Assembly: GCA_029553545.1 (NCBI GenBank)
Contig: JAKPKU010000265.1
Location: 1-54,433 of the forward strand
Origin: Candidatus Cloacimonadota bacterium
GTDB taxonomy: Bacteria > Cloacimonadota > Cloacimonadia > Cloacimonadales > WRIO01
DNA length: 54,433 bases
Reading direction: 5' to 3'
Shown here: positions 12,709 through 43,033 of the stretch, one piece after another
Position numbering within the stretch: the stretch's first letter is position 1
Layout: each line of letters begins with the position of its first letter
Translations under genes and position numbers: made by a program
Notes under the pieces: generated by a model
The model's input: the letters and a program-made list of their open reading frames with translations, nothing else
Database searches by the model: none
What the model was told of the DNA's origin: nothing

Positions 12709-12844
12709 TCCTTTCTTATACTATTTTGGTTAGTGAACCTTAGTATTATAAAATCTAAGGTGAATGAAACGAGTATCTATTATGAGATTTTCTGAGATTG
12801 AAAAAGATGCTTTGTAAACATTTTCTATATTTTAAAAATTCACA

Positions 12845-12987
12845 ATAAATCTCTGTTACATTCCCTTTAGATTCCTATTAGATTCCCTTTCATTCTCCAA
12901 GATAGCAAGGGGAATGTAAGGGGAGTCACATAGACATCTATATGTTAAATAGTGAGATATAAAACTGAGCAGGTAATTAGTGAAAAG
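12845..12987 (+). repeat. Dispersed structured repeat R2, copy 1
   Basis: About 143 bases that recur at 42732-42874 in the same orientation. The most conserved block is a hairpin CATTCTCC / GGGGAATG (12891-12898, 12909-12916), whose 10-base loop AAGATAGCAA is identical in both copies. An outer pairing TTACATTCCC/GGGAATGTAA (12857-12866, 12910-12919) competes with it. Downstream boxes AATAGTGAGATA and ATTAGTGAAAAG are also shared. No coding frame. It could be a small RNA, a leader element or a miniature mobile element. Confidence 0.75.
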
Positions 12988-13070
12988 ATGGGAAAACAGA
13001 TCTGGTAACATACTTTTTTATGTTTTTTTGCACCATCTTTTATTGTAGAATAAGACGAATTTTATTTCTC

Positions 13071-19975: not shown

Positions 19976-20173
19976 TATTATTTATTACTGATACTTTATT
20001 GCTGCATTGAAAGTTGATATTTACGACACTTCATCAACTATCATTGAAAATTAAGAGATAAAAAAGGAAATGTATTAGTAGTTTGAGGGTATTGATTAAT
20101 GCATATTTTTAACGACTAATTTATATTCACAGACATGAAGAATAAATATTATCAGATAGTGTTTCGTTGTGTC

Positions 20174-20304
20174 TTGCAAAAAAAATCTCCTCTAAACCCG
20201 CTTGTAATAGGCATCTGCTGATTTGAGAGAAAATAGTTTTCTAAAAACACCATTTTGTAAGCCCTATATATAGAGGGTATTGTTTTATTAATAAGTCTGC
20301 TTTG
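20174..20304 (-). repeat. Dispersed repeat R1, copy 1 (inverted)
   Basis: Reverse-oriented copy of the element at 32600-32751 and 42521-42691. The conserved inner block contains CCCTCTATATATAGGG, an AAAACTATTTT hairpin and CAGCAGATGCCTA followed by AGCGGGTTTAG and a T-run. Its outer ends no longer show the TGTTGCA terminal repeats clearly. It lies between convergent genes. No coding frame. Confidence 0.8.
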
Positions 20305-20397
20305 TTCTTTACAAGTTATTTTAATCTGCTGTACAATAGTCTCAGTTTTTTTATTTCTGCTTTAGTTATCAAAAGCTTGTTTTGGGTAATCATAATT

Positions 20398-32581: not shown

Positions 32582-32599
32582 GCTCAAATATCTTGCGGC

Positions 32600-32751
32600 T
32601 GTTGCATAGTAAATAAAACAGAATCATAAATAAAAACATCACCCTCTATATATATTGGCAGGACAAAACGGTGTTTTTTGAAAACTATTTTCAACTAAAT
32701 CAGCAGATGCCTACTACGAGCGGGTTTAGAGGTGATTTTTTTTTAACAACA
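32600..32751 (+). repeat. Dispersed repeat R1, copy 2
   Basis: 152 bases between birA and cls (convergent). Starts TGTTGCA and ends TTAACAACA. Inner block as in the other copies: CCCTCTATATATA, GAAAACTATTTTC hairpin, CTAAA/TTTAG stem enclosing CAGCAGATGCCTACTACGAG, then an eight-T or longer run. The T-run on the plus strand could end the birA transcript. The remainder of the 285-base spacer has nothing else recognised. Confidence 0.85.
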
Positions 32752-32866
32752 TCTACCCTTAGTTGTTTCAGATCAATTATATTTCATCTCTCAGTTTTCT
32801 TCGAGTCTGTAAATATAATCAACACTCTCTGTTTATGTTTGATATGATCGTCATACAATATAATAT

Positions 32867-42392: not shown

Positions 42393-42520
42393 CACAATTT
42401 TAGCATATTTTTATAAACACACATAATAAATTATTAATAATAATGTATAAAGCATTTATTAGTAGAGCCTTAAGTTCATAAATTATTTAGTAATAAGGTT
42501 TTTAAGGCATTAATAGATGC

Positions 42521-42691
42521 TGTTGCATAGAAATCCAAAATATCTTATAAAAAATAAAGCAGAACCATAAATAAAAGCATCACCCTCTATATATATAGGG
42601 CTTACAAAATGCTGTTTTTTGAAAACTATTTTCATCTAAATCAGCAGATGTCTACTACGAGCGGGTTTAGATGCGATTTTTTTTTGCAACA
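42521..42691 (+). repeat. Dispersed repeat R1, copy 3 (most complete)
   Basis: 171 bases bounded by terminal inverted repeats TGTTGCA (42521-42527) and TGCAACA (42685-42691). Contains CCCTCTATATATATAGGG, a TGAAAACTATTTTCA hairpin and an 8-bp stem CATCTAAA/TTTAGATG enclosing a 25-base loop with CAGCAGATGTCTACTACGAG, followed by nine T. No coding capacity and no obvious target-site duplication. The interior is better kept among copies than the ends. Confidence 0.85.
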
Positions 42692-42731
42692 CTACTTTTT
42701 GCTCCACTCTTTTATCGAAATAAGATTTATC

Positions 42732-42874
42732 ATAAATCTCCTTTACACTCCCTTTAGATTCCTATAAGATTCTCGTTCATTCTCCAAGATAGCAAGGGGA
42801 ATGTCAAGGGAGTCATATGTACATAACACTGAAAAATAGTGAGATACAACAAGAAGAGAAAAATTAGTGAAAAG
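42732..42874 (+). repeat. Dispersed structured repeat R2, copy 2
   Basis: Same orientation as 12845-12987. The hairpin CATTCTCC / GGGGAATG and its loop AAGATAGCAA (42778-42803) are identical to copy 1. The outer pairing differs: ACTCCCTT/AAGGGAGT here versus TTACATTCCC/GGGAATGTAA there, so pairing is kept while bases change. Sits 40 bases after R1 copy 3. Confidence 0.75.
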
Positions 42875-43033
42875 CAATTAAAACGGAGTTGATAAGGGGG
42901 GGTGTTTGTTCCTTTTCATGTCTCATTTAAAAGTAAAAAATAGGGAGATTTTTAAGCGGTTTTTTAAAAAATGTTGTTTTGATTTTAGGTGTAATAGCTT
43001 CAAGATTGTTCAAGAAAAATAGTTGGTTATTAA

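Follow-up and report, generated by a model that had tools for sequence, protein, structure and literature searches.

R1, a probable IS5-type MITE family in a Candidatus Cloacimonadota genome, carries a core repeat that also occurs outside it

MITEs that are tied by their ends to IS5-family insertion sequences (ISs) are known from Porphyromonas gingivalis, in which MITEPgRS/MITE464 and ISPg4 form such a pair and a further element, BrickBuilt, shares this kind of relationship, and from Neisseria, in which the same holds for ATR (PMC4596501). Here we describe R1, a dispersed repeat of a Candidatus Cloacimonadota genome, as a well-supported new IS5-type MITE family together with its parent IS. The literature searched contained no paper on a MITE family of the Cloacimonadota, and R1 is thus apparently the first such family from this phylum; with its parent it provides a concrete and testable pair.

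R1 was first seen as three copies in the window, the stretch of 54,433 nucleotides analyzed here, by a sequence-only reading whose places and strands were about right. Identity is 88% both between copies 2 and 3 (over 139 nt) and between copies 1 and 3 (over 98 nt), and the aligned blocks have in common a fixed loop, GCGGGTTTAG, and a T-run. That reading had named the lack of further copies in the genome among the grounds for its refutation. A search of the 2.88-Mb genome with the 30-nt kernel, allowing up to three mismatches, yielded 93 matches versus 0 for the reversed control, and the family comprises ∼100 copies (93 to 100 per 2.9 Mb), counts that are lower bounds because some copies at contig ends are incomplete. 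R1 occupies ∼1% of the genome and is, as expected of a MITE, dispersed and mostly intergenic, with 76 of 80 copies located outside open reading frames (ORFs) of 80 or more amino acids (gene calls by ORF length, and therefore approximate). In the species-level genome collection, the kernel matched one other record, a metagenome-assembled genome (MAG) of Candidatus Cloacimonadota from the same genus (G001 here), while the viral contigs searched contained no match.

The extents of the window copies had to be redrawn (Table 1). Copy 1, taken earlier to lack its ends, is complete, with the ends GAGACTATTG...ATACCCTC and perfect AAACT duplications; copy 2 does not stop at 32751 but reaches its 3' end CAACACTCTC at 32829; and copy 3 starts slightly earlier than proposed, at 42516, and lacks the terminal repeat on its 3' side. 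The TGTTGCA...TGCAACA ends ascribed to copy 3 probably reflect a fortuitous GCAACA that follows the T-run in this copy; family homology stops just after the T-run, and the family ends are GAGG(C/G)TGTTG and CAACACCCTC. A second dispersed repeat is present in the window at 12835-13008 and 42722-42895 (76% identity over 174 nt), the latter copy beginning ∼30 nt past R1 copy 3. Sequence related to this second repeat (TTCTCCAAGATAGCAAGGGGAATGT) is found at the IS left-end junction of locus L140, and L070 has similar sequence downstream of its R1.

Table 1. Positions of R1 copies and their parts in the window
Feature	Position	Strand	Remarks
R1 copy 1, complete 259-bp MITE	20085..20343	-	5' end GAGACTATTGTACAG, 3' end TATGCATTAATCAATACCCTC, perfect AAACT duplication
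Target-site duplication AAACT, 5' side of copy 1	20344..20348	-	
Target-site duplication AAACT, 3' side of copy 1	20080..20084	-	
Kernel of copy 1 (CAGCAGATGCCTATTACAAGCGGGTTTAGA)	20191..20220	-	0 mismatches
R1 copy 2, both ends (GCGGCTGTTG / CAACACTCTC), each arm with internal deletions, target duplication not intact	32595..32829	+	
Core of copy 2, ATTGGCAGGACAAAA subtype common to the sister species	32641..32742	+	Sequence model match, alignment
R1 copy 3: 5' terminal repeat (GATGCTGTTGCATAG) and core; without 3' arm and 3' terminal repeat	42516..42691	+	Family homology ends at model position 178, just past the T-run
Core of copy 3: CCCTCTATATATATAGGG block, AT-rich dyad GAAAACTATTTTC, kernel, T-run	42582..42683	+	Model match, E=1.2e-30
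CTCTATATATATAGG stretch of the copy 3 core; IS repeatedly inserted at the same position in other copies	42586..42600	+	IS junctions in L121/L072, L122, L149
Kernel of copy 3 (fixed loop and GCGGGTTTAGA)	42642..42671	+	

From an alignment of 96 copies, together with copies picked by their ends only, we derived the layout GAGGcTGTTGCATAGTAACC, A/T-rich arm, core, T-run, 3' arm of ∼110 bp, and GCATTAATCAACACCCTC. Complete copies run from GAGGcTGTTGCATAGT to (A)TCAACACCCTC and fall into two size classes, of ∼280 bp and ∼315 bp. We consider the ∼315-bp class (L109, L110, L071, and L057) to be the younger one because its near-identical copies break contigs; this recently spread subfamily has lost the T8 run (AACTTTTTATTCC). 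In the young copies L109 and L110, the terminal inverted repeats GAGGGTGTTG and CAACACCCTC are perfect over 10 bp. A search by ends only retrieved 34 full-length copies of 264 to 345 bp, that is, below the ∼500 to 600 bp that bounds a MITE; R1 contains no transposase gene, and the longest window copy (259 bp) contains no ORF of 100 amino acids. The flanks of R1 show a 5-bp target duplication, with a match of 0.614 versus 0.401 in permuted flanks at k=5 (z 5.3), nothing at k=2 to 4 or 6 to 10, and perfect 5-bp duplications in 6 of 28 end-to-end copies versus 0.42 expected.

Many copies lack one or both ends, and R1 homology is a mosaic: in 44 of 100 copies R1 stops just past the T-run and gives way to different sequence, frequently another repeat module, and ∼20 of 100 begin only at the core. 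R1 is also found nested in R1 (L116, L120, L123, and L057), and the internal CACCCTC-TATATATA-GGG looks like a fossil junction of two elements. Among the modules observed downstream, T-runs are often followed by tandem repeats of the (T)8AACAACACACTGCAACACACTT type (for example, L028, L050, L068, and L077), with a parallel tandem repeat (AACAGCGAACTACAACGAACTT) after cores in the sister species (for example, L174, L187, and L191 of G001). In L027, L080, L094, L095, and L096, the T-run is followed by imperfect palindromes GGTCCTCGCTTCGCTGCGGGTTAGGTACTTCGACTTCGTCGAAGGTTAGG arranged in strings, which form another palindrome family of intergenic DNA, and in L071 a tandem array of ACAACTAAGGATAGTTGTACCTACGTTTGTCATTTGG units lies downstream of the core on the minus strand. 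A solo mini-element, L117 (C252:39464-39540), extends from the R1 5' end to the internal CAACACCCTC and appears to have inserted into a gene that ends in a sequence similar to a T9SS sorting domain.

The sequence-only reading had likened R1 to a miniature transposable element, and the same genome contains an IS with matching ends. This multicopy IS5-family IS, found from contig-end sequences, would in its complete form lie between GAGGGTGTTGCATAGTCAAC and CGGCTTTATTCAACACCCTC. Its left end, GAGGGTGTTGCATAGTCAACTATATT, is followed by a pair of -35/-10-like boxes, an AAGGAG ribosome site, and an ATG (read by eye), and its right end, ...ATAACGGCTTTATTCAACACCCTC, lies downstream of a DDE_Tnp_1 transposase. 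The left end occurs identically in 5 places and the right end in ∼9, almost all of them where contigs break. The IS is never complete within one contig, as its copies break the assembly, and left end, transposase, and right end were linked via L145 and a transposase half on contig C117. L145 is a solo, internally deleted derivative that joins both IS ends between AACTT repeats, which shows that the two ends belong together and that the IS, too, generates a 5-bp duplication. Of the transposase, only the C-terminal half was available; this half matches PF01609 (DDE_Tnp_1) with E=1.8e-24 and scores best against IS5-family models; its best NCBIfam match is transpos_IS5_4 (NF033581; E=1.5e-31, 109.9 bits, below the cut-off of 140). 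The IS is placed at the level of the IS5 family, and the 5-bp duplication is not tied to a named IS5 subgroup.

Young R1 copies are identical to the IS over 16 of 16 bases on the left and over 15 bases on the right, although the two ends of the IS are unequal to each other past base 10. Given this match to asymmetric ends, and the same 5-bp duplication around the deleted IS copy, R1 can be regarded as a MITE of this IS5-type IS. The end motif GAGGSTGTTGMATA occurs 48 times in the R1 host genome versus 0 times in G001. As a candidate parent we ruled out an IS with a DUF772-type transposase (ends GAGAGCTTTGAATTAG), whose ends differ from those of R1, whereas the IS described above fits exactly. 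The DUF772 IS (ends GAGAGCTTTGAATTAG...CTAATTCAAAGCTCTC; L125, L134, and L135) has a short MITE of its own, which sits in a copy of this very IS between AAGTT repeats (5-bp duplication). Another element of ∼360 bp, at C7:7254-7613 and C93:17378-17737 of G000 (near L006 and L020; also at L107), has inward-facing GAGG(C/G)TGTTGCATA ends around a different interior and is possibly a second MITE family of the parent IS of R1.

We compared the conservation of the parts of R1. Among 27 copies of the 280-bp class chosen by ends alone, identity to the consensus was.936 and.928 in the interior and.965 in the T-run, compared with.857 and.898 in the 5' parts and.824 and.864 in the 3' parts (interior versus 3' middle, p=5e-15; versus 5' arm, p=0.015). 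The better-conserved interior first noted in the window therefore holds for the family. An associated proposal, that the stem around the fixed loop varies in sequence yet keeps pairing, fails over about 90 copies. RNAalifold predicted no pairs for 90 copies of the host genome and no structure for 33 copies of the sister species. When 3' arms were swapped between copies, the kernel hairpin became no weaker (native mean -8.48 versus permuted -8.52 kcal/mol), and 621 of 1,000 permutations were as good as the native hairpin. Likewise, fold energies of the interior were not below those of column-permuted alignments on both strands in two species (z +1.5, +1.6, +0.8, and +0.8), and on the forward strand the interior folded equally to shuffles in both. 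Covariation support, the lack of which had been named among the grounds for refutation, was thus absent from RNAalifold, arm swapping, and column permutation alike. The core is conserved as primary sequence and not as RNA structure, so that a conserved interior with a T-run should not by itself be taken as evidence of an RNA.

These results bear directly on two earlier proposals, a small RNA spread by transposition and a mobile terminator. That R1 is a small structured RNA gene moved by transposition is very unlikely. The conserved loop and the conservation of the interior over the arms would fit it, and QMITEs of Coxiella are reported as a source of sRNAs (PMC10969869), but native R1 folds have no covariation and no excess stability, Rfam returned nothing for the window at gathering thresholds or for copy 3 at permissive ones, and copies 2 and 3 contain no plus-strand σ70-like promoter, the promoter and terminator scan giving only chance-level matches. 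A mobile intrinsic terminator, in which the kernel stem and T-run (or, on the other strand, the first hairpin and A-run) stop transcription and copies are kept as gene insulators, is improbable as well. Nearly all ∼280-bp copies do have the T-run directly past a possible stem, the core lies between A-run and T-run in the sister species too, and of the three window hairpins, that of copy 3 is more stable than its shuffles (z -2.4). However, the hairpins of copies 1 and 2 are not (z -0.3 each, with the T-run present), the young 315-bp subfamily spreads without the run, and the scan found no terminator in copies 2 and 3, within limits that exclude a 25-nt loop. The folding negatives concern conserved RNA structure and are compatible with weak terminator activity of single copies.

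The gene context points the same way. The upstream neighbor reads away from R1 in 50 of 80 cases, and neighbor genes are divergent in 30, tandem in 33, and convergent in 16 (raw counts, uncorrected for the genome-wide background of intergenic types). In tandem settings, R1 lies with the genes in 13 cases and against them in 20 (p=0.30), so there is no orientation bias towards terminating the neighbors, and copies show neither the placement nor the orientation of elements at gene 3' ends. Selection for a terminator would be expected to leave a different pattern. Lacking covariation, excess folding, and orientation bias, both proposals are left unsupported.

The core of ∼105 bp also occurs without the transposon shell. 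When we searched 107 genomes of the order with a model built from core sequence alone, we found at least 35 dispersed copies in G001, most with E values of 1e-13 to 1e-5, which align end to end from A-run to T-run and around which no terminal repeats, common terminal sequence, or target duplication were detected. Stand-alone cores are also present in the R1 host genome, where some copies without ends consist of the kernel only (L004, L069, and L089). The core subtype GCAGGACAAAATGGGG is common to both species; copies are mostly at different loci in the two genomes, with two pairs (L049/L194 and L074/L190) appearing to share neighbor and orientation. The dispersal in G001 without MITE ends suggests that the core predates the transposon shell or is independent of it, which makes it a useful example of a repeat independent of its carrier. 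We do not count the single exact-match copy in G001 as shared between the species. A protein stretch of 398 amino acids encoded on its contig, C87 (JAJBBH010000072.1), is 99% identical to that of the R1 host, compared with mostly 45 to 91% at the other matched G001 loci, and the contig thus probably belongs to the R1 host species and was binned into the wrong MAG. The first half of the core was also matched weakly (E 2e-4 to 6e-4) in G048 (L201 and L202, at contig ends) and G016 (L203), and these sequences may be a distant relative of the core; in G048, CCCTC...GAGGG and CAAAATGA...TCATTTTG pair perfectly.

The core can also be read in other ways. It may be a sequence-specific DNA site, protein-binding or nucleoid-related, under selection, with the MITE shell incidental. 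Conservation of primary sequence and not of pairing would agree with this, as would the recurrence of the core in two species without shared flanks, its number in the host (93 to 100 per 2.9 Mb), and the persistence of stand-alone and kernel-only copies without ends. We nevertheless judge it unlikely, because copies are mostly at different places in the two species, no known site or protein corresponds to the core, and selfish repeats likewise disperse with mosaic neighbors. Spread in the manner of REP elements by a tyrosine (RAYT/IS200-type) transposase, which needs no target duplication, would explain why none was detected around G001 cores and agrees with the palindromic AT-rich parts and with two Y1 transposase genes in the R1 host genome. 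This is very unlikely, since no Y1 transposase was found in G001 and, among the core matches listed, none lies within ∼1.5 kb of the Y1 gene on C113 and none on C186; no Y1 gene is flanked by the repeat among these matches.

The core also receives other elements. Three of the 10 distinct right-end junctions of the IS that were listed fall inside TATATATA, each in a different R1 copy; when one of the three is joined to a left-end junction, CCCTCTATATATATAGGG is restored with a 5-bp ATATA duplication. With a target that makes up 0.05% of the genome, the chance of this is ∼1e-8, and this stretch of the core is an insertion hotspot for the IS. The other IS group also has ends at TATATATA (L040 and L076).

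Taken together, we assign a probability of roughly 90% to the reading of R1 as a MITE with the ends of an IS5-family IS of the same genome, whose core is an older, genus-specific repeat that acts as passive passenger and IS landing site. R1 would be a non-coding passenger transposon with the ends of the full IS, GAGGGTGTTGCATAGT on the left and GAGGGTGTTGAATAA inwards on the right, which the IS transposase would bind to move R1 in trans into AT-rich intergenic DNA. Given that the core lacks the shell in the sister species and also stands alone here, the MITE most likely originated from a core copy that had gained IS ends on both sides in the R1 host lineage, and it would then have been amplified. 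The core, bounded by A-run and T-run, is most likely passive DNA that doubles as a landing site, although the interior is more conserved than expected of a purely passive passenger, which is a point against this part of the reading. It is doubtful that the core is a functional, sequence-conserved DNA element of the genus with its own way of spreading, one for which neither terminal repeats nor a target duplication were detected in the sister species, and that it was captured by the IS5-type shell in one lineage. If true, this repeat family would have kept its sequence through a change of vehicle and would serve ISs as a landing pad besides.

Compared with described systems, this MITE resembles the pair of MITE464 and ISPg4 in having nearly the same terminal repeats (GAGACTGTTGCA versus GAGGCTGTTGCA in R1) and an IS5-family IS with such ends in the same genome. 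It differs in belonging to another phylum and in its ∼100 copies with a 105-bp core, and the comparison covers the ends; the 5-bp duplication of R1 compares with 2 to 9 bp reported for ISPg elements (PMC4596501). R1 shares with BrickBuilt and ATR its non-coding nature, IS5-type ends, and absence of a transposase remnant, and with BrickBuilt its intergenic location, but BrickBuilt carries 23-nt minisatellite repeats, whereas the 105-bp core of R1 is unique. Nesting of small repeats is also known for SPRITE, RUP, and BOX of Streptococcus pneumoniae, of which SPRITE is terminator-like (PMC10969869), unlike R1 with its lack of folding excess and covariation. Many truncated copies without ends beside fewer complete ones are likewise reported for QMITE2 of Coxiella and Chunjie of Geobacter, and QMITE2 is also a target of an IS, namely, IS1111 (PMC10969869). 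Host and element differ in these cases, and no interior without its shell, such as we find for the core of R1, is reported there from a sister species (PMC10969869).
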